From an uncultured Bacteroidota bacterium (GTDB lineage Bacteria > Bacteroidota > Bacteroidia > Flavobacteriales > Flavobacteriaceae), in NCBI GenBank assembly GCA_902511755.1, contig CABXGL010000013.1, forward strand, positions 1 to 40,579: a stretch of DNA of 40,579 nt, read 5' to 3'. The translations under genes and the position numbers were made by a program. Below the pieces are notes generated by a model. The model was not told where the DNA came from, did no database searches, and was given only the letters and a program-made list of their open reading frames with translations. Of the stretch, positions 26,445-36,273 are shown in pieces (the first letter of the stretch is position 1; every line of letters starts with the position of its first letter).

Positions 26445-26529
26445 GGAGGAATGGCAGAGTGGTCGAATGCGGCAGTCTTGAAAACTGTTGAGGGTCACAC
26501 CTCCGGGGGTTCGAATCCCTCTTCCTCCG
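26445..26529 (+). tRNA. tRNA-Ser (anticodon TGA)
   Basis: The acceptor arms GGAGGAA (26445-26451) and TTCCTCC (26522-26528) pair fully, followed by discriminator G. The anticodon stem surrounds the loop CTTGAAA with anticodon TGA at 26479-26481, reading UCA. A long variable arm (GAGG...CCTC) marks it as a class II serine tRNA, and GGTTCGAAT gives the T loop. CCA is not encoded. A strong promoter precedes it and a hairpin terminator follows directly. It stands between core genes on the left and accessory genes on the right. Confidence 0.97.
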
Positions 26530-26530
26530 C

Positions 26531-26586: not shown

Positions 26587-27006
26587 ATGAATTGGAAATG
26601 TAAGCATACCTGGAAAAGAGCAAGAATAAATACTTTATGGTGTTTATTGGGTTGTTCTATTGGAGACTTTGGAACAATATTCTATTTCCAAAATGTAGAG
26701 CACGATTGGAGTACATTTGAAATAATGAGTTTAGCAATAGTAAATGGACTGTTAACCTCTATTATTTTAGAAACAATAATTCTTCTAAAACAAATGGGTT
26801 TTAAAATTGCGCTAAAAACTGCCTTAGGTATGAGTTTTATATCAATGGTAGGTATGGAATTGTCTATGAATATTACTGATGCAATATTAACTGGTGGTGC
26901 AATATTAACTTGGTGGGCAATACCAATAATGTTGTTTGTGGGATTTATAACACCGCTACCTTATAACTATTGGAGATTAAAAAAGTATAATGTAAGTTGC
27001 CATTGA
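26587..27006 (+). CDS. DUF4396 domain membrane protein
   Basis: This 139-residue membrane protein matches DUF4396. Features are the cysteine-containing N-terminus (C5, C19, C23 in WKCKHTWKRARINTLWCLLG) followed by SIGDFG, a central helix with the ETIILLKQ segment, the GMSFISMVGMELSMNITD block, and the C-terminal end YNYWRLKKYNVSCH. About four hydrophobic segments are visible. Cysteine and histidine at both ends hint at metal binding, but the function is unknown. It is the only plus-strand gene right of the tRNA and starts just after the tRNA terminator. Its stop abuts a half copy of the 56-bp repeat. Confidence 0.8.
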   Translation: MNWKCKHTWKRARINTLWCLLGCSIGDFGTIFYFQNVEHDWSTFEIMSLAIVNGLLTSIILETIILLKQMGFKIALKTALGMSFISMVGMELSMNITDAILTGGAILTWWAIPIMLFVGFITPLPYNYWRLKKYNVSCH

Positions 27007-27008
27007 AC

Positions 27009-27036
27009 TAAAAGAAGAAGATATGCCTATGGTTTA
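27009..27036 (-). repeat. 56-bp junction element, left-half copy (copy D)
   Basis: Read on the minus strand, 28 bases starting with TAAACCATAGGCATATCTTC are identical to the left half of the full copy at 35157-35212. The first three bases (27036-27034) are the TAA stop codon of the small membrane protein ending here. Similarity fades beyond position 28. It lies just after the stop of the convergent DUF4396 gene. Confidence 0.85.
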
Positions 27037-27213
27037 AGGTTTTTGATTAAAAATCTTCGTTGGAATAACATACAAGAAGATTATAATACAAATAGGTAAA
27101 ATGACATCAATAATGACTCCTTCTCCTTGAAATAATTTAACTATTCCATAAATAACCCAACCAATCAGTATAATTAGTGTAATCCTGCCTAATGGTTTTA
27201 AAAGCTTTTTCAT
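27034..27213 (-). CDS. Small two-helix membrane protein
   Basis: From the ATG at 27213 this is a 59-residue protein starting MKKLLKPLGRI, with two hydrophobic helices (ITLIILIGWVIYGIVKLF and VIIDVILPICIIIFLYVI). The frame is open to a further ATG at 27228. I prefer 27213 because that ATG overlaps the TGA of the preceding 35-residue gene (ATGA) and gives a typical basic N-terminus. No family is recognised. Its TAA stop is the first codon of a repeat element (copy D). Partnership with the 35-residue and HXXEE membrane proteins is inferred from the operon layout. Confidence 0.6.
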   Translation of the reverse strand: MKKLLKPLGRITLIILIGWVIYGIVKLFQGEGVIIDVILPICIIIFLYVIPTKIFNQKP

Positions 27214-27317
27214 TCGCTTAAATACCATTCAGTAATAATAGAACCTCCATAATATCCAACTGTAAATGCAATAATTATAAGAATTGTAACTTTAACCCAG
27301 GATTGCCATTTTTTCAT
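27210..27317 (-). CDS. Tiny single-helix membrane protein (35 residues)
   Basis: A 35-codon frame starts MKKWQSWVKV, has one hydrophobic stretch (VTILIIIAFTVGYYGGSII) and ends in TEWYLSE. An ATG two codons upstream (27323) is an alternative start. It lies 25 bases after the HXXEE gene, and its TGA overlaps the ATG of the next small membrane gene by 4 bases. The basic N-terminus, the transmembrane pattern and the ATGA coupling support a real gene. No family is recognised and function is unknown. Confidence 0.5.
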   Translation of the reverse strand: MKKWQSWVKVTILIIIAFTVGYYGGSIITEWYLSE

Positions 27318-27342
27318 ATCCATAATAGTAGAATTAGTTTTT

Positions 27343-27867
27343 TCATATTAATAATCTATTAACCCAGATATAATAAAAGGCACATAGTAAAATCGAGTAT
27401 CTAATAATCTCCGGACCTATTATTTCAAAAAGCGCAAAAGTCATTATACCTAAAAAGGATAGTACAAATAATTCCAAACGATTCTTTAAAAAACCTTCTT
27501 TAAGCGCGGACCTAATAATTAAAACATTTATAGGGATATAAAGACATATCGCTGTTATTAACCCTGGACTAAAATCATTGTAGTAAATGCTAAAAAATAT
27601 ATGGAAGAAAGCATTCGCAACTTGTGTTGTCATTAAATAAAACAAAACAATATGTGCGCTTCCCCTGTTATTCTTAATTAGATGAATAAAAATTGATAGT
27701 AGGATTAGTGAAATGAGAGTAACCAAAATTTCTTCTGTGCTACTTGGGTTATTATCTAAAAAATATCTTAATCTCCATTCTCTAAAATTAAATACTATGT
27801 GCTCCTCAAAATGATGAAGGGCATATATTAATGGCCCAAGAACTATTAGATTTTTAAATTTTTTCAC
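27343..27867 (-). CDS. HXXEE domain membrane protein
   Basis: This 174-residue membrane protein has about five hydrophobic segments and carries the HXXEE signature near its N-terminus as HHFEEH (residues 18-23), with a later TTQVANAFFHIFF segment typical of the family. The function of HXXEE proteins is unknown; the conserved His and Glu residues could bind metal. The start is a GTG that forms the last three bases of repeat copy C. It heads a small operon with the 35- and 59-residue membrane proteins. Confidence 0.75.
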   Translation of the reverse strand: MKKFKNLIVLGPLIYALHHFEEHIVFNFREWRLRYFLDNNPSSTEEILVTLISLILLSIFIHLIKNNRGSAHIVLFYLMTTQVANAFFHIFFSIYYNDFSPGLITAICLYIPINVLIIRSALKEGFLKNRLELFVLSFLGIMTFALFEIIGPEIIRYSILLCAFYYIWVNRLLI

Positions 27868-27893
27868 AATCTAAATATAAGAATTGCTGAATT
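27865..27893 (-). repeat. 56-bp junction element, right-half copy (copy C)
   Basis: On the minus strand the 29 bases 27893-27865 match the last 29 bases of the full copy at 35157-35212 with two differences. They include AGCAATTC, a TATATTTA box and the terminal TTGTG, whose GTG is the HXXEE start codon. The left half of the element is missing. An AT-rich inverted repeat (27911-27919 with 27932-27940) lies just upstream, at the end of the TPR gene. Confidence 0.85.
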
Positions 27894-27929
27894 GCATCAT
27901 TTTTAGATGAATGATTATTTGAATGAATG

Positions 27930-29015
27930 TTAATAATCATCTATAAATCCATCATATGCTTCAGTTTGGCATTTATGCATCACTAGATGTTTTTTTGATA
28001 ATTGTACAATATAAGTATCCTCCGACTTGGCAGCTTTTTCCCAATCTGCGCAAGCTCCATTTAAATCTCCAGATAATTGTTTTACATAGCCTCTTGAAAA
28101 GAGAAAATATACTTCATCAGGCTCAAGTTCCATGAGTTTAGTGTAGTCTTCTATAGAACCCTTATAATCTTCAGACTTTCCTTTTGCCTGTGCAATTGCC
28201 TGCAGATAATAACTAGTTTTATTAGGATTAAGCTTTAAAGCTTTAGTATAGTCTTCTATAGCACCTTTATAATCTTCTAAATTACGCTTTGCATTCCCTC
28301 TTTCACTATAACTATCCTCATCAGGCTTAAGATTTATGACTTTAGTAAAGTCTTCCATAGAACCCTTATAATCCTTTAATCTAGATTTTGCCCACGCCCT
28401 TTCATTGTAAGCCTTTATATTATCAGGATCAAGCTCTATGACTTTAGTATAGTCTTCTACAGCACCCTTATAATCTCTACTTATATTATTTTTAGTATCT
28501 CTATATTTTTTTGAATTAGCTCTTTTACTGTAAGCTATTATATTATCAGGATCAAGTTCTATGATTTTAGTGTAGTCTTCTATAGAACCCTTATAATCTT
28601 CAGCATTATGTCTTTGTGACGCTCTTCTATAGTAAGCTGGTATGTTATCAGGATCAAGTTCTATGATTTTGGTAAAGTCTTTTATAGCAGCCGACCAATT
28701 ATAATCTAATAAATTAGATTTTGCATTCCCTCTTTTATAGTAAGCTGGTATGTTGTCAGGATCAAGCTCTATGACTTTAGTATAGTCTTCTATACCACCC
28801 TTATAATCTAATAAATTAGATTTTGCATTCCCTCTTTTATCGTAAGCTTTTATATTATCAGGATCAAGTTCTATTGCTTTATTATAGTCTTCTAAAGCAC
28901 CTTTATAATCCATTATTTTACTTTTTTTGATACCCATTTTAACAAATTTCCTTGCACTTTGGCTATAAGATGTGTAACTAAATAAGATGAGTAATACAAT
29001 TAAAAGTTTCTTCAC
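27930..29015 (-). CDS. Secreted tetratricopeptide-repeat protein
   Basis: This 361-residue protein has a signal peptide (KKLLIVLLILFSYTSYS) followed by about nine TPR units of 34 residues with the pattern DYKGAIEDYTKVIELDPDNI..AY..RGNAKSNL. Such solenoids bind other proteins, so a periplasmic or surface scaffold role is likely. Two units carry insertions (DYNWSAAIKDF and YRDTKNNISRDYKG). Repeat DNA is nearly identical between adjacent units, suggesting recent expansion. The start is GTG, the last codon of repeat copy B; no ATG is available before the basic start of the signal peptide. Confidence 0.85.
   Translation of the reverse strand: MKKLLIVLLILFSYTSYSQSARKFVKMGIKKSKIMDYKGALEDYNKAIELDPDNIKAYDKRGNAKSNLLDYKGGIEDYTKVIELDPDNIPAYYKRGNAKSNLLDYNWSAAIKDFTKIIELDPDNIPAYYRRASQRHNAEDYKGSIEDYTKIIELDPDNIIAYSKRANSKKYRDTKNNISRDYKGAVEDYTKVIELDPDNIKAYNERAWAKSRLKDYKGSMEDFTKVINLKPDEDSYSERGNAKRNLEDYKGAIEDYTKALKLNPNKTSYYLQAIAQAKGKSEDYKGSIEDYTKLMELEPDEVYFLFSRGYVKQLSGDLNGACADWEKAAKSEDTYIVQLSKKHLVMHKCQTEAYDGFIDDY
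28699..28840 (-). repeat. Tandem 102-bp coding repeat inside the TPR gene
   Basis: A 40-base segment containing TAATAAATTAGATTTTGCAT occurs at 28699-28738 and again at 28801-28840, exactly 102 bases (34 codons) apart, with no or almost no change. Neighbouring units are more diverged. This is the clearest part of a longer TPR-encoding repeat array. Confidence 0.8.
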
Positions 29016-29068
29016 AACATAAATATATGAATTGCTGAATCAAAAGAAGAAGATATACCTATAGTTTA
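29013..29068 (-). repeat. 56-bp junction element, full copy (copy B)
   Basis: Read on the minus strand the element runs from TAAACTATAGG through ATATCTTCTTCTTTT and AGCAATTC to TATATTTATGTTGTG. It is the same length as the copy at 35157-35212 and matches it at 49 of 56 positions. Its first three bases are the stop codon of the MORN-protease gene, and its last three are the GTG start of the TPR gene. Confidence 0.9.
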
Positions 29069-30043
29069 GAAAGTTAATTCTCCAGCTTCTATATCTATAC
29101 TGAATGATTTTGATGGAGCTAACAAAGCATTTAAGCCAAGTAAATTAGAGGCATTTACATTGTCCAATACACTACATTGAATATCTTCAATCTCATATTT
29201 ACCTATTTTCATTTTATCAATGAGGTATGTTGCTCCTTTAACAATATCTCCATTAGCAATTTCAAATGAATTATCTGTTTTATTTTTAATTTTTATTTGC
29301 TTTAAAGTAACAAGAGCATAAAAAATTTCTTTATTAATCACGACAGTTGATGCTCCAGAATCCAATACCATAGGAAACTTTGTTCCATTAAAATCTACTT
29401 CAACAATTATGCTACTTTGATTATAAAAAATTGGAACTGCATTAGGATTGTTTTTGTTTGCATCTATCCAATCATTTTCAAACCAATTACCATCATTTTG
29501 AATTCCACCCTCTGGTGTTATAATTTTACCTATACCTTGTCTTTTGCCATTTAGAACTCCACCTAAATATTTGTTACCATTAGCATATTCAATTTCACCA
29601 TTTTTATCATTTAAAATATCATTGATAAAATTTCCTTTATAAATTCTAAAGTCGCCACCTACTAATGGTTGTTTTTTTTCACCTTTTCCATTCAATTTCC
29701 AATCAGTTATATTATTCTCAATTATTTTAGTAATAAATCCGTTTTTTATTGTACCATTAGGCATTGTAATTTTTCCTTCTTTTGTTCCGTCAATATTAAT
29801 AACATCTTCTCCATCAGTAAAATAACCTTCAAAAATTATTTTATTTTTTTTTCCAAAATTTTCATAAGTATATTTTCCTAATCCCTCAGGGAATTTATTT
29901 TTAAATTCTCCCTCATACGTTCCTTTTGTACCCGTTAGGTTATATTTTTTTGTTCCTATTCCATCATCACAATCTCCTTTTATACATTGAGAATTAGCAA
30001 TAAAACAAATTAAAAGAGTTGAAGTTATTAGTAGTTTTTTCAT
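29066..30043 (-). CDS. Secreted MORN-repeat protein with a C-terminal retropepsin-like aspartic protease domain
   Basis: This 325-residue protein begins with a signal peptide (KKLLITSTLLICFIANS). Residues about 40-190 contain MORN-type repeats (TYEGEFKNKFPEGLGKY, YKGNFINDIL...NG, YLGGVLNGKRQGIGKI), beta-hairpin units that bind membranes or proteins. Residues about 210-325 form a single-copy aspartic protease domain with the active-site motif LDSGAST (D228) and the downstream LGLNAL segment. One DSG motif means it must dimerise, like retropepsins. The combination suggests a protease anchored or targeted by MORN repeats. Its TAA stop is the first codon of repeat copy B. Confidence 0.8.
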   Translation of the reverse strand: MKKLLITSTLLICFIANSQCIKGDCDDGIGTKKYNLTGTKGTYEGEFKNKFPEGLGKYTYENFGKKNKIIFEGYFTDGEDVINIDGTKEGKITMPNGTIKNGFITKIIENNITDWKLNGKGEKKQPLVGGDFRIYKGNFINDILNDKNGEIEYANGNKYLGGVLNGKRQGIGKIITPEGGIQNDGNWFENDWIDANKNNPNAVPIFYNQSSIIVEVDFNGTKFPMVLDSGASTVVINKEIFYALVTLKQIKIKNKTDNSFEIANGDIVKGATYLIDKMKIGKYEIEDIQCSVLDNVNASNLLGLNALLAPSKSFSIDIEAGELTF

Positions 30044-30065
30044 TTTAGATAATATTTTTTAATTA

Positions 30066-31589
30066 TTAATTGTTTTTTCTAGGTAATAGATTATCGTGCA
30101 TTGCGGCATGATATACAAATGAAGCAACAATTACAGCGTTCTTTTTTATATCTTCAATTGGGATAGTATCATAATAGTCAAGATTAGTATGACCGCCTGT
30201 ACCTCCTACTCTATCTTGCAAAAATTGGAAAGCTGGTAAGCCTACCCTATCAAATGGAATGTGGTCAGTACTTCCTACACTTTGTGATGCAATAGTAGTC
30301 ATTCCAAGATCTTTAAAGGGTGACATCCAAGATGTAAATGCTTGTCGGACATGCTCATTGTCTTGTAAATAAATTCCACGATACTGCCCTGGTCCATAAT
30401 CTTGATTAAAATAAGCAGAGAATTTGTCATAATCTCTTTTTTTACCAATGTTAGGATCATTTGGATTACCAAAATGTTTATTTACATATTCTCTAGAGCC
30501 ATAAAGTCCTTGTTCTTCACCTGACCAAAGAGCGATACGAATAGTTCTTCTGGGTTTAATATCAATTGCTTTTAATATACGCATGGCTTCTAACATTACA
30601 GCAACACCTGAAGTATTATCACTTGCGTTTGGACTTGCATGCCATGTATCAAAATGAGCCCCTAACATAACTATTTCATCTTTAAGATCTGTCCCTGGAA
30701 TTTCACCTATCGTATTTCGGGCCTTTCTTCTATTCTTGCCAATTTTATTTTTTATTTCTAACTCTATTTTTATTGGAATATCTCTTTTTGCAATACGAAC
30801 CATTCTGTTATAATGTTCAGGTGTAACAGCAACAATTGGCAAGTGATCTAATGTTTCTTCACGTCCCCATTTATCTTGCTTAGCACCTGGACGAGCAAAA
30901 CCTCTAACCGCTGCAATCCAACCACTGCGCGACTCTAATATTGCAATTACGCCTTCATCTTTAAAAAAAGAATTTCTTTCAATTGTTGAAACCAAATCAG
31001 GATTAGATGGAGGGCGAGGTCCTCTTGCTTCTTTTGGAAATGGTTTTTGTGAAATTTCAAATAATTCACTATCAGTATATCTAGGCGTGCCCTTACTATA
31101 TCTATCTAAATCAATTTTTGGTGGTGGTGTAGCTAAAACAGCTTTCCCATTAAGTTTACCTCTATACTTATTAAAGTCTGATTTAGTTATTATTTCTACA
31201 AGGCTAACTGACAATTTTTTTCTACCATCTATCCCTGGTGTGTGTGATATTGGATAACCAACCATTACTTGCTGATCTGGTTCTAAAAGATGAAGAGAAA
31301 AATATTCATTGTCCCAACTAACTCCATAATCCATGAAAGGTTCAAGTTTAGTGTTTTTTAAGCCAATACGCTTCATTTCTATAATTAACCAATCTTGGGC
31401 ACGTCTCATATCTTCTGAATTAGTTAGACGGGCTCCTAGTACATCGGTCATATAAGATAAAGTATTCGCAATTTCAGATCGTTGAAAACCTTCTTCACGT
31501 ATTTTTGAAACAGTTTCCAAATCAACTTCATATGTAAGTTGACCAAAAGAAACAAGAGGAATGAATATTAGTATTATTAGTTTTTTCAT
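30066..31589 (-). CDS. Secreted M28 family metallopeptidase
   Basis: This 507-residue exported zinc aminopeptidase or carboxypeptidase starts with a signal peptide (KKLIILIFIPLVSFG). The metal ligands of clan MH are visible: His in LGAHFDTW, the bridging Asp in ASDNTSG, the Glu pair in WSGEEQGLYGS, the Asp in FNQDYGPGQ and the final His in STDHIPFD. An insert at about 130-250 looks like a PA domain. It lies between the CocE/NonD hydrolase (60 bases) and the MORN protease (22 bases), giving three hydrolytic enzymes in a row, likely for extracellular or periplasmic peptide breakdown. Confidence 0.9.
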   Translation of the reverse strand: MKKLIILIFIPLVSFGQLTYEVDLETVSKIREEGFQRSEIANTLSYMTDVLGARLTNSEDMRRAQDWLIIEMKRIGLKNTKLEPFMDYGVSWDNEYFSLHLLEPDQQVMVGYPISHTPGIDGRKKLSVSLVEIITKSDFNKYRGKLNGKAVLATPPPKIDLDRYSKGTPRYTDSELFEISQKPFPKEARGPRPPSNPDLVSTIERNSFFKDEGVIAILESRSGWIAAVRGFARPGAKQDKWGREETLDHLPIVAVTPEHYNRMVRIAKRDIPIKIELEIKNKIGKNRRKARNTIGEIPGTDLKDEIVMLGAHFDTWHASPNASDNTSGVAVMLEAMRILKAIDIKPRRTIRIALWSGEEQGLYGSREYVNKHFGNPNDPNIGKKRDYDKFSAYFNQDYGPGQYRGIYLQDNEHVRQAFTSWMSPFKDLGMTTIASQSVGSTDHIPFDRVGLPAFQFLQDRVGGTGGHTNLDYYDTIPIEDIKKNAVIVASFVYHAAMHDNLLPRKNN

Positions 31590-31649
31590 AGTCTTAAATT
31601 AATTTAATTCTTAATTTAATCAAAATAGAGAAACTTTTGTTAGCTGGTT

Positions 31650-33500
31650 TTACTTTTCTACTATAGGTAATTCAATATATGTTGAATTTTTACTATTACA
31701 GTAAATAGTATGAGTTGCCCTTATAAAGTCACTATCTTTTGCTTTAAAAATGTTTGGGACATAGTTTTGTGGGTTGCGATCTATTATTGGAAACCAAGTG
31801 CTTTGTATTTGAATCATTATTTTATGTCCTTTTAAAAAAACATGATCTATTTGATGTAAGTCTATTATAATCTCTTCTGGTTTATTTGGTATAAATGGTT
31901 CTGGTTTCTCGAAACTTTTTCTAAAACGACCTCTAAAAACTTCCATAGTAACAGGAAATTGATATCCACTCATGGTTATGTCTTCTTTATAAAAATCAGG
32001 ATATACATCTATGATCTTCACAATGAAATCGGCATCAGTAGCAGTGGTACTGGCATTAATATATGCTTTTATCTTTCCAGTTACTGTTAAATTTTCTGTT
32101 AAGGTTTCTGTTGTAAAATTCAATACATCTGGTCTAGAACTAACGAAGCGCTGGTCTTCTACATGCCAAGAACTCCAGTTACTTTCTGATGTAAATGTTG
32201 ATTCTATTGGTCTTTTTCTATAAGGAATTGGTTTTGAAGGATCACTTATATAGCTTACCGATCCTGATTCTAAATTTGGTTTATTAAAAGAACTTGTATT
32301 GTCTATATGAGTATATAATCGTTTGATTGTTGCATTTTTTGCTGGCCACGCATCATATGATTTCCATGTATTAGAACCCGTTTGAAAAGTATACACCTCA
32401 TTATATATTCCCTCACCAATCCCTTTTAACCAATAATCAAACCATTTTTTTTCAAAATCCCGAAACCACTCAGATGTATTGCTTCCAAATTCTATTTCCC
32501 CAAGTGAATTACCATCATCAAACGACCATTGGCCATGATTCCATGGACCAAGAATCATATAATTTTTATTAGAAGTATCCTTCTTTTCTAAATGTTCATA
32601 CATTACTTGAGGACCCATCAAATCTTCTGAGTCGTAATACCCACCTACATGTAAAATAGGAATTTCAGGAGCATGAATATTGGTTAAACTTGATTGTTGT
32701 TTCCAATAATTATCGTAATTAGGATGGTCTACGAAATCATTCCATGATGAAAATTTACCTTTAAAATATTTTTCATTAACATTATTTAAAGCCCCAAGGT
32801 TTAAATACCAATCAAATACATCATATTGAGGAAATGGAAATAAACTAAGAGACTCTTTAATGTTTTCAACCAAATATGCATACTCTAATGCATAACTTAA
32901 TCTAAATGCACCATTATGATGAAAATCGTCACCTAAAAACATATCTGCTGGTGAAGCCTGTGGAGAGCTTGCTTTTAATGCTGGATGTGGGTCTACTGAA
33001 GCTTGCAAAGAAGTAAGTCCTGGATAAGAAATACCATAAATACCAGCCTTGCCATTGTTATTAGATATGTTTTTAATCAACCAATCTACAGTATCATAAG
33101 CATCAGTACTCTCATCAGTTTTAGAGCTATCTTTTAAATGATACAAGGGTTTGGCTACTTCAAAAATACCTTCACTTTTAGATCTTCCTCTTATGTCTTG
33201 AATTACAAAAATATATCCTCCCTCAGCTAATCTCTTAGGAACTGGCATGTTTTCAGTTTTAATAGAATCTCCTTTCTTATAAGATGTTTCAGAGCCGTAA
33301 GGTGTTCTTTTTAAAAGAAATGGAAAAGATTCTGTATTTCCAATAGGTTTTAATATTTCGGTATATAGCATTATTCCATCTCGCATAGGAATCATGTGTG
33401 ATTCTTTTGTGTATAATTTAATACTCGTATTGTCTTGAGCAATAAGAATATTGAAAGAAACAAGTGGAATAATTAATAATAGCAGAATTAATTTTTTCAT
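31650..33500 (-). CDS. Secreted CocE/NonD family hydrolase (X-Pro dipeptidyl-peptidase S15-like)
   Basis: This 616-residue exported alpha/beta hydrolase resembles alpha-amino-acid ester hydrolases and glutaryl-7-ACA acylases. It has a signal peptide (KKLILLLLIIPLVSFN). The nucleophile is S158 in GIYGISYPG, the likely acid is Asp in HVGGYYDSED, and the likely base is His in GPWNHGQW. A C-terminal jellyroll of the S15 type follows from about residue 420 (NLTVTGKIKAYINAS). It may cleave peptides, esters or amides. It follows the GMC oxidoreductase by 15 bases on the same strand. Confidence 0.88.
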   Translation of the reverse strand: MKKLILLLLIIPLVSFNILIAQDNTSIKLYTKESHMIPMRDGIMLYTEILKPIGNTESFPFLLKRTPYGSETSYKKGDSIKTENMPVPKRLAEGGYIFVIQDIRGRSKSEGIFEVAKPLYHLKDSSKTDESTDAYDTVDWLIKNISNNNGKAGIYGISYPGLTSLQASVDPHPALKASSPQASPADMFLGDDFHHNGAFRLSYALEYAYLVENIKESLSLFPFPQYDVFDWYLNLGALNNVNEKYFKGKFSSWNDFVDHPNYDNYWKQQSSLTNIHAPEIPILHVGGYYDSEDLMGPQVMYEHLEKKDTSNKNYMILGPWNHGQWSFDDGNSLGEIEFGSNTSEWFRDFEKKWFDYWLKGIGEGIYNEVYTFQTGSNTWKSYDAWPAKNATIKRLYTHIDNTSSFNKPNLESGSVSYISDPSKPIPYRKRPIESTFTSESNWSSWHVEDQRFVSSRPDVLNFTTETLTENLTVTGKIKAYINASTTATDADFIVKIIDVYPDFYKEDITMSGYQFPVTMEVFRGRFRKSFEKPEPFIPNKPEEIIIDLHQIDHVFLKGHKIMIQIQSTWFPIIDRNPQNYVPNIFKAKDSDFIRATHTIYCNSKNSTYIELPIVEK

Positions 33501-33515
33501 TTAATTAAAATAATT

Positions 33516-35159
33516 TTAGGTAGTGTTTAAAATCATATCTGCTGCTTTTTCTGCAATCATATATACAGGAGCATTAGTGTTTCCAGAAACAATTTTAGGC
33601 ATAATTGAGGCATCAACTACTCTCAAATTACTAATCCCATGTACTTTTAAAGAAGAATCTACTACAGACATCTTATCTGTTCCCATTTTACAAGTACCTA
33701 CAGGATGATAGACTGTTTCAAGAGTTTTTTTTATGTGTTCAATAAGAAAATCGTCTGAAGATCGATTAATAGGAAGTCTATCTAATTTAATATGTTTTTT
33801 TAAGGATTCATCTTTCATTAGTTTAAATACTAGCTTGCCTCCTTTAATAAGTTTATCCAGATCATCTTTTTCTTGTAAAAAATTAGGCTGAATAATTGGT
33901 GGTGCTTTTGGATCTGAAGATGAAAGACTAACGGTTCCTCTACTTTTAGGATGTAATAATGTTGGCAGTATAGTAAAACCATCTACTCTTGGATAATCAT
34001 AAAGATCATAGGCATCATAACCATACTTATTATCTATACATATTGGAGAAAAATGTAATTGAAAATCTACTTTTCCACCCATTTGATCAAGATCAAAAAA
34101 GGCTACACCTTCTAGAGGACCAGCACAAAAAACTCCTTTATTGTTAACATAGTAATTCCAAGCAGCTTTAAGTTGATTTAATGGTGAGATATAATGATTA
34201 ATACCTTCTTGAGTTTTTGATTGTGCACATATTGGATAAAACAAATGATCCTGTAAATTCTTACCAACTCCATTTAATTCATGTAAGCAATCAATACCAT
34301 GTTTTCTTAATTCGTAAGTTTCTCCAATTCCAGACAACATTAATAGTTGTGGTGATTGAAAAGATCCAGCAGAAAGTATGATCTCTTTTTGTACATATAC
34401 TTTAACTTTTTTTGAACCTTTAATATACTCTACTCCTACAGCTTCCTTACCATTTAAAATCACCTTACAAACTTGAGCATTTGTTATAGCAGTCAAGTTA
34501 TTTCTATTTAAAACAGGTTTTAAAAAAGCTGCTGCTCCGCTATGACGTTTTCCATTTTTAATAGTACTATGAACCAAACTAGCTCCCTCCTGATTTAATC
34601 CATTATAATCATCATTTTTTGGTATACCCATTTTTTCACAAGCTGAAATAAATCCATCAACATAAGGTGTTTTAAATTTTGTTGGAAGCGTAACATTTAA
34701 TTCTCCAGAACTTCCATGAAAATCAGAATCTACCTTATCTATTTGTTCATGATGTTCTGATCGTTTAAAATAAGGTAGCACATCTTTATATCCCCAACCA
34801 TCATTACCAGCCTCTGCCCAGCCATCATAATCTTCAGCATTCCCTCTTACATAAGCCATAGCATTTGTAGAACTACTACCACCTAAGGCTTTTCCCCTGG
34901 GCAAATAGATTTTTCGATTCAATACATTAGACTGATTTTCGGACCAAAAACCCCAATCTTGTTTGCTTTTATGAACCTTTAAGTAAGCACCGGGAATATG
35001 AATATTCATATTTGAATCCGGTCCTCCTGCTTCTAATAATAGAACTGAATTTTGGGGATTTTTAGACAAACGATTTGCCAATACACAACCTGCAGAACCT
35101 GCACCAATTATAATATAATCGTAATATTCTCCTGAAAATGGTTCGTTTGAAATTTTCAC
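33516..35159 (-). CDS. GMC family FAD-dependent oxidoreductase (choline dehydrogenase-like)
   Basis: This 547-residue flavoprotein oxidises alcohols or related substrates. The FAD Rossmann motif GAGSAG is at 19-24. The first GMC signature [19 protein letters not shown] and the [15 protein letters not shown] segment follow. The second signature is around [17 protein letters not shown], and the C-terminus has active-site histidine in VYHPVGTC and asparagine in [10 protein letters not shown]. It lacks a signal peptide. It resembles BetA in size, but no betaine genes are near and the substrate is unknown. Its GTG start is the end of repeat copy A. Confidence 0.9.
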
Positions 35160-35212
35160 AAACTAAATATAAGAATTGCTAAATTAAAAGAAGAAGATAT
35201 GCCTATGGTTTA
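35157..35212 (-). repeat. 56-bp junction element, full copy (copy A)
   Basis: Read on the minus strand it runs from TAAACCATAGG through ATATCTTCTTCTTTTA and AGCAATTC to TATATTTAGTTTGTG. The GTG is the start codon of the GMC oxidoreductase. Here the upstream gene (GH117-like) stops 23 bases before the element, unlike copies B and D. It matches copy B at 49 of 56 positions and copy D at 28 of 28. Confidence 0.9.
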
Positions 35213-35235: not shown

Positions 35236-36273
35236 TTAATTTTTATATTTAGATTCTTCTAAATTAATTTCATACCTAAACAAATGTGGCCATTTATTAT
35301 TCTTTATACTTCCATAAAACATTGAAATACCCCACGATATTCCTTCCTCTTGTTTTGATGTATCTCTAAAATTACCTACACGGTATGAACCGGGAGCTTT
35401 AGGATAATCATCACCAAAAGAAGCTACCATTTTAAAGTTAATACCATCCTCCGAAAATTGCAGGGTTTTCCCCTCCGGCCCATGACTTGAAATTAAACTC
35501 ATTATACCTCCTTGATATGGCCAAACCATCACTTCGTGACCACTTTTAATAATTGGATTATTTTTATGTTTTATATAAGGTCCATATGGTTTATCGGCAA
35601 TTGCAACCCCTAATTTTGTATGTCTTGGTCCCTCTTTACCATATTTTCGGCTTCTGCCCTTATAATACAAATAGTACTTGTTATTTCGGTAAACCATACA
35701 TGCATCATCAATTCTGTAACTGTCAAAATGTTCGATACTATCACTAATCTCTAATATTGGCTTTGAAGATACACGCACAAAAGGTCCGTCAGGAGAATCA
35801 GATACAGTAAGCCCAATGGCAGTAATATCTGTTTCTGAATTGTTTTCAAACTTACCCTCCTGATTTCCAGGAGTGGGCTTAACCCCGGTATAAAACAAAT
35901 AATACTTTCCTTTTGAGACTAAAATATTCGGAGTAAATACACTATATGCGTCCCAGCTGCCGGTATTCCCTCTGGGTATTGCTTCCCCTTTTTCTTCCCA
36001 GGTTTCACCATCTATAGAGCTTGCGTACCAAACGGATGCGTTATAGCCACTATAGCCACCAAATATTTCAGATATTTCTGTTTTTGTGTACCATAAGTAA
36101 TAAGTGTCACCCACCTTAATTACATCCGACGGATCTCTGCGGGTTACACCAGTTTCGGGCTCAAGTCCCTTTAGAATTGAATAACTAAAAGATACACTAT
36201 TGATTTTAATCTCAGTGTTTTTTTTAGAAGTACAACCTATTAAAACTAATAACAGTAGTATGAGTTTTCTCAT
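35236..36273 (-). CDS. GH117-like glycoside hydrolase lipoprotein (five-bladed beta-propeller)
   Basis: This 345-residue lipoprotein has a short signal peptide and lipobox ending at C14 (LLVLIGC). The body resembles GH117 and the related GH43 clan: RRDPSDVIKVGDTYYLWYT, WDAYSVFTPNILVSKGKYYLFYTG, DACMVYRNNKYYLYYKG, KLGVAIADKPYGPY and SGHEVMVWPY. GH117 enzymes release 3,6-anhydro-galactose or galactose-type sugars from red-algal oligosaccharides, but the sequence does not settle the specificity. Much of the gene is richer in G+C than its neighbours. It follows the AlkA-like gene by 9 bases in the glycan operon. Confidence 0.75.
   Translation of the reverse strand: MRKLILLLLVLIGCTSKKNTEIKINSVSFSYSILKGLEPETGVTRRDPSDVIKVGDTYYLWYTKTEISEIFGGYSGYNASVWYASSIDGETWEEKGEAIPRGNTGSWDAYSVFTPNILVSKGKYYLFYTGVKPTPGNQEGKFENNSETDITAIGLTVSDSPDGPFVRVSSKPILEISDSIEHFDSYRIDDACMVYRNNKYYLYYKGRSRKYGKEGPRHTKLGVAIADKPYGPYIKHKNNPIIKSGHEVMVWPYQGGIMSLISSHGPEGKTLQFSEDGINFKMVASFGDDYPKAPGSYRVGNFRDTSKQEEGISWGISMFYGSIKNNKWPHLFRYEINLEESKYKN

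Follow-up and report, generated by a model that had tools for sequence, protein, structure and literature searches.

A 56-bp element is repeated at gene junctions in a 40,579-nt stretch of DNA (the window) from an uncultured member of the Flavobacteriaceae (contig CABXGL010000013.1 of GenBank assembly GCA_902511755.1), and it is likely to represent the attachment site of a tyrosine-recombinase gene-cassette system. As judged by comparison of its copies, the element is a composite of two modules, a 28-bp site and a separate 5′ module, and the site, read on the opposite strand, corresponds to the final codons of an integrase gene together with its stop codon. An initial annotation of the window had considered a regulatory leader, a recombination junction, or a mobile-cassette boundary. 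The latter options are well supported by the placement of the site at an integrase end, by the arrays in which sites are found, and by the recurrence of the intervening units at other loci.

The identity of the left half could be recognized because longer forms of the site read as the end of a recombinase on the other strand. The left half itself translates on the opposite strand to ...SLTYLRGLEVAELKEEDMPMV-stop, and the longer continuations give ...MGHSSLNVSLTYLRGLEVAELKEEDMPMV-stop, which is how a tyrosine recombinase ends. In the core-bearing loci among the matches listed (loci are numbered with L here and below), 13 of 236 core matches (≤3 mismatches) continue into frames of 343–374 amino acids (aa). 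In an alignment of 12 integrases, identity to the first sequence is 44–67% and the last ~50 residues are nearly invariant, which in part reflects selection because the loci were chosen by core sequence. All three integrases that were scanned exceeded the PF00589 cut-off of 27.1 bits (40.8, 48.1, and 47.0 bits). Residues R209, K237, R297, H320, and Y329 are invariant in the 12 proteins, columns that we presume to correspond to particular catalytic residues, and the first His of the HxxR motif is apparently Tyr. An AlphaFold model of the integrase (mean predicted local distance difference test score 76, predicted template modeling score 0.48, residues 320–346 below 50) retrieved lambda Int, integron integrase, and XerA in Foldseek, with low TM-scores and a low-confidence C-terminus. 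Protein searches detected the integrase in an order sample (23 of 395 genomes at E ≤ 1e-25, fragmentary matches included) and in a phylum sample (two of 395 genomes at E ≤ 1e-40), and gave no match in plasmids or phages at E ≤ 1e-5. The integrases found by protein carry other 3′ ends, and those that were read all end in LxxxDMP/DLP and a few variable residues.

Comparison of the integrase loci revealed a layout of the integron type, in which the array occupies one side of the integrase, each unit has one site, and the sites face the same direction. Bare sites lie 3′ of the integrase in seven of 13 loci (one each in L093, L114, and L166, two each in L152 and L158, three in L175, and six in L107). 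The order in L107 is gene (+), site, gene (−), site, gene (−), site, gene (−), site, gene (+), site, gene (−), site, and a final site that is the 3′ end of the integrase on the opposite strand. The 5′ side was scanned in 17 entries, of which two duplicate a place already included and one (L132) offers only 1 base of sequence; the best matches were two sites with five mismatches, a chance-like result. The same layout was found with an independent integrase subfamily, at L255, which has its own site variant; this variant matches at 36 of 39 and 34 of 39 positions at two places and at 25 of 39 at two more, the maximum in shuffled sequence being 22. A single extra site is present in L248 and in L250, and several other loci have none in the stretch fetched.

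The units share a common plan, consisting of the right part of a site, a ragged remnant of the integrase 3′ end, one or more genes, and (C/T)TAAAC. The 159 unique units have a median length of 814 bp, and 157–159 site-to-site units lack an integrase of their own, as do the site-flanked units of cis-mobilizable elements (CIMEs). The longest open reading frame (ORF) points toward the right-hand site in 122 of the 159 units and away from it in 36, with none in the remaining unit. Among the 122 forward ORFs, 27 stop on the TAA of the site and 13 more on its TAG, while 51 have their stop over 30 bp short of it. The coincidence of element copies with stop codons arises because the site itself carries a TAA that is used as a stop.

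The boundaries of the site and the linkage of its parts to neighboring genes were used to position the exchange point. Among 269 sites, information content is at most 0.08 bits at positions −40 to −8, 0.17 at −7, and 1.07 at −6, and it stays at or above 0.94 from −6 to +22. This left edge is sharp; the right edge is ragged, at 19–217 bp in the 231 sites without an integrase frame. Linkage was analyzed in 193 bare sites, a looser set of 589 sites having mixed integrase–integrase pairs into the same-downstream class. The analysis yielded 48 pairs that share the upstream side only, 40 that share the downstream side only, and two that share both. Identity at −20 to −7 was 0.56–0.77 in same-upstream, 0.20–0.45 in same-downstream, and 0.29–0.38 in random pairs, and base −1 agreed in 6/11, 0/5, and 77/1480 cases, respectively. 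Variants at +23 to +33 agreed in 54 of 174 informative cells of the summed table for same-downstream pairs, 26 of 236 for same-upstream pairs, and 3891 of 29303 for random pairs. Because the bases to the left track the upstream gene and the tail tracks the downstream gene, this comparison places the exchange point inside the site, to the right of base −1 and to the left of the tail.

Units were also found to recur independently of their surroundings. Among 157 site-to-site segments, 115 pairs had at least 80% inside coverage at less than 99.3% identity. In 77 of these pairs, which derive from 30 distinct segments and show 68–96% identity, 0 bp aligned in both 500-bp flanks; four of the 77 had less than 100 bp of testable left flank, and some pairs represent one genome under two names. 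Eleven pairs had at least 200 bp of aligned flank, including self-matches and one place present twice. A unit of the window's own genome (contig C2, 110254-110598) recurs among other neighbors in L159, L118, L131, L117, and L149. Where the right neighbor is not a site-bearing unit, identity stops at TAAAC or TAAACCA (L071, L165, and L259).

The composite build of the element is apparent from the behavior of its parts. The site consists of (C/T)TAAAC-CATAGGCATATCTTCTTCTTTTA and a tail, the length of which varies elsewhere. The left part, TAAACCATAGGCATATCTTCTTCTTTTA, is nearly invariant among copies elsewhere. What follows it on the right differs among copies and can be CAATTCTTATATTTAGRTTGTG, the form found in the window, AAAATTATTGTAAATTGTA, or a longer sequence. 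The 5′ module (CAATTCTTATATTTAGRTTGTG...) is also found without a site, in copy C and at contig C4:27385. It is probably a promoter plus start, and would serve as a module for expression and secretion. The right half contains TATATTTAG, which we take to resemble the Bacteroidota −7 element, and it often continues into similar signal-peptide DNA. A signal-peptide 38-mer (the start of MKKLLLLLLFIPLVSFGQ) occurs 13 times in the own genome (≤3 mismatches; reversed control, 0), and eight of these places lie within arrays or adjoin a site (contigs C2, C3, C4, C6, C11, and C43; L042). In 11 genes with this DNA, mean identity is 62% over the first 54 nt and 30% over the next 150 nt (55 pairs, one entry being one base off). 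The siteless module on contig C4 (27385-27413; L046) lies ahead of a short gene, and geneless signal-peptide stubs were seen by eye at L042:10609 and 13834.

In the window, copy B matches copy A at 49 of 56 positions, copy C matches its right half at 27 of 29, and copy D its left half at 28 of 28, while the best unrelated places score only 32/56, 21/29, and 19/28. As originally described, copies A, B, and C run up to the GTG start codon of the GMC, TPR, and HXXEE gene, respectively, and copies B and D open on the stop codon of the preceding ORF. The description of the element as running exactly from stop to start codon holds in full only for copy B; copy A is separated by 23 bp from the end of the preceding ORF at 35236. 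That such sharing is not due to chance was borne out by 11 further matches at E ≤ 4e-6 in the own genome (a 1.41-Mb assembly of 57 contigs, 68% complete). Seven are on contig C2, within about 10 kb, three on C11, and one on C6; the reversed pattern gave no match in any of 60 genomes. Copies of the element are thus neither confined to the window nor restricted to co-duplicated flanks, being many and having different neighbors.

The element is present (≤3 mismatches) in 19 of 22 genomes of the same genus, the own genome included, vs. none of 38 outside it. In the order sample, the window-type site (≤3 mismatches) occurs in six of 395 genomes, again counting its own, and the exact 22-bp core was found in at least 115 stretches of genome contigs. 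Among the matches listed, the titles of core-bearing records are mostly Flavobacteriaceae, Flavobacteriales, or Bacteroidetes, including Polaribacter, Lacinutrix, and Marinoscillum, together with one Cytophagales, one Rhodobacteraceae metagenome-assembled genome, and the strain Polaribacter filamentus ATCC 700397. Records named AG- or AH- are presumably single-cell genomes, which would argue against binning error. The exact core was not found in IMG/VR contigs, where variants of the core were not searched. No description of such a system was found in titles and abstract openings of the open-access PMC literature, a scope that excludes preprints, and the passages available from PMC12416821 contain nothing on such a system.

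In the proposed cassette mechanism, the integrase, or a relative acting in trans, would recombine two sites across an overlap near TAAACCA, and such two-site recombination would insert or excise units, probably as circles. Since the overlap holds the last codons and stop of the integrase, insertion would leave the reading frame usable. The genus, in which a full-length integrase of this family was not found, would have to obtain the enzyme for its site-only arrays from elsewhere.

Several observations weigh against this interpretation. Recombination, circles, and expression were not observed. A full-length integrase of this family was not found in the 22 genus genomes, most of which are incomplete assemblies; seven contain integrase fragments of 26–76 model positions. 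Other PF00589 proteins gave 18 matches in six genomes of the genus, and the three that were read (338, 338, and 401 aa) have C-termini unlike that of this integrase. The left site is trimmed or missing in several recurring units (L117, L149, L153, L113, and L160), which would have to be explained by loss or by the unit having stood first in its array. An array is also lacking, in the stretch fetched, from many loci with integrases of other subfamilies, and L149 has a real, diverged site 2.8 kb 5′ of the integrase that the 5′-side scan overlooked. The linkage pairs are not independent, the core (0 to +22) is too invariant for fine placement of the exchange point, and same-upstream identity slightly exceeds random at +24, +25, and +28. 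A DUF4396 gene follows a site both at L119:6865-7301 and at window positions 26587-27006, in opposite orientations and with 92% identity over 437 bp. Finally, the target of the integrase that the layout proves may be a tRNA rather than this site. By eye, tRNA sequence adjoins the integrase 5′ end in 16 of 17 right flanks, L125 being the one in which none was seen. The pieces are mostly the 3′ portion from the D or anticodon arm, and are reversed in L185 and L175, which are apparently related; ARAGORN identified tRNAs at the integrase 5′ ends of L247, L253, L158, L156, and L114. These enzymes therefore probably reside on tRNA islands, and the tRNA may be their other target.

The association with tRNA genes could also reflect a history of decay, in which integrase islands accreted at tRNA genes and their integrases eroded from the 5′ side to leave inactive stubs. 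Remnants that are ragged on one side only, tRNA next to integrase 5′ ends, and genus arrays near tRNA and transfer-messenger RNA (tmRNA) genes would all be expected of such scars. This origin is nevertheless unlikely, mainly because under it the upstream cargo should carry the site and its tail along, whereas the tail is linked to the downstream gene and not to the upstream one; the joining of unrelated cargo at one base of the integrase stop codon is also left unexplained. We consider it somewhat less likely still that units are shuffled by RecA-type homologous recombination among dispersed repeats of 28–60 bp, with no dedicated recombinase acting now. Identical repeats of such length can recombine, and the genus has many near-identical sites and no full-length integrase of this family that could be found. 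However, this process moves existing units and does not create a base-exact left edge across hundreds of unrelated genes, nor does it explain an integrase at one end of the array.

The shared regulatory leader raised by the initial annotation would require that the whole 56 bp be a promoter or leader copied ahead of genes. While the right half does end at start codons and continue into similar signal-peptide DNA, the opposite strand of the left half encodes the integrase C-terminus, and genes occur in either orientation in the units that follow. Together these two features rule out a leader role for the left half, and a leader spanning the entire element is highly improbable; the right half by itself may be a leader.

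The cassette system envisaged here is, by its sequence features, integron-like in behavior, although its components are not those of integrons. Both integrons and attC arrays that lack an integrase (CALINs) likewise have mostly single-gene units, one site per unit, sites in one direction, and, in integrons, a tyrosine recombinase at one end; arrays without an integrase, like CALINs, occur here too. The system was not classed as an integron because neither of two defining features was found. The integrase is not of the IntI type (TIGR02249 scores of 18.7 and 20.2 bits vs. a cut-off of 265), and attC-like hairpins were not detected on either strand of the three window sites A, B, and D (z from −0.3 to +1.6 against base-composition shuffles). 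Furthermore, the site lies within the 3′ coding end of the integrase gene itself, in contrast to attI beside the 5′ end of the integrase, and the main ORF is reversed in about a quarter of the units (36/159). CIMEs accrete at an attachment site, and the present units appear to resemble them in lacking an integrase between attachment sites, in tandem stacking, and in depending on an enzyme in trans, but are small, numerous in each genome, and bounded by a site derived from an integrase end. The tRNA-targeting islands, P4-like integrases, and tycheposons share with this system a tyrosine recombinase next to tRNA sequence, variable cargo, and small marine genomes, and differ in that sites here are repeated internally between cargo genes.

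The chances are about even that this is a second, independently evolved integron-like system, in which the cassette site of a tyrosine recombinase from Bacteroidota is supplied by the 3′ coding end of the recombinase gene and each captured gene bears a copy of the recombinase tail. In such a system, a shared promoter and signal-peptide module would permit immediate expression and export, and its distribution would take in several families of marine Flavobacteriales and, as record titles suggest, other Bacteroidota. The gain and loss of genes one at a time is poorly known in marine Bacteroidota with small genomes, and with a candidate recombinase and a defined site in hand, such exchange could be counted in metagenomes and tested in laboratory experiments. 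If this reading is true, neither an integron-related integrase nor a site outside coding DNA is needed for integron-like arrays to arise, and ocean bacteria appear to swap genes via integrase-tail sites that mark the joints of exchangeable cassettes.

The features of the window locus are compiled in Table 1. Arrays in the own genome are located near tRNA-Ser (in the window), tRNA-His, tRNA-Arg, and tmRNA. The tRNA-Ser side of the window is present in 19 of 22 genus genomes; nine of 18 sister contigs stop within 400 bp of this tRNA, and those that continue carry other content. In a near relative (G007), the GMC gene lies 87 bp past tRNA-Ser, whereas 7 kb of other units intervene in the window, and both site and module are missing from the 5′ flank of this GMC gene; in G016, the GMC gene is preceded by the module with no clear site.

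Table 1. Element copies and associated features of the window.
Feature	Position	Strand	Remarks
Copy A	35157-35212	minus	Site (35185-35212) and 5′ module ending at GTG of GMC oxidoreductase gene
Copy B	29013-29068	minus	Site opening on stop of MORN/aspartyl-protease gene, and 5′ module ending at GTG of TPR gene
Copy C	27865-27893	minus	5′ module alone, site core absent; ends at GTG of HXXEE gene
Copy D	27009-27036	minus	Bare site opening on stop codon of 64-aa ORF
Unit A-B	29069-35184	minus	Four genes: GMC oxidoreductase, S15 peptidase, M28 peptidase, MORN/aspartyl protease; exceeds median unit size
TPR-repeat protein gene	27930-29015	minus	After site B
HXXEE-motif protein gene	27343-27867	minus	After module of copy C
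64-aa ORF	27034-27228	minus	Stop codon falls on site D; also found in L129 (matching part 94.7% identical, flanks dissimilar)
DUF4396 gene	26587-27006	plus	Between site D and tRNA; orientation opposite to other units
tRNA-Ser(tga)	26445-26530	plus	Bounds variable region

The TPR gene is made of tandem DNA repeats of ~102 bp (window 28114-28939). PADLOC analysis of 10 proteins for defense cargo gave strong matches for a Dcm-type methyltransferase beside the C2 array, two weak matches for the TPR protein, and none for the other eight. The methyltransferase gene (L042:4429-5358) directly precedes the array, and the sequence before the C11 site (L044:5811-6010) appears by eye to encode the C-terminal part of a specificity subunit of a type I restriction system. 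At L043, L099, L124, L142, L146, L260, L318, L320, L322, L329, and L330, a conserved sequence (CTCAGAACCTCACTATTATACA...) that stops close to tRNA-Ser or tmRNA was noted; it comes after some of the sites and, in several genomes, immediately after tRNA-Ser. At L043:390-2530, one gene and one site are seen by eye to be enclosed by a duplicated tmRNA 3′ end, each copy with its hairpin, an arrangement that resembles an integrase-less island.

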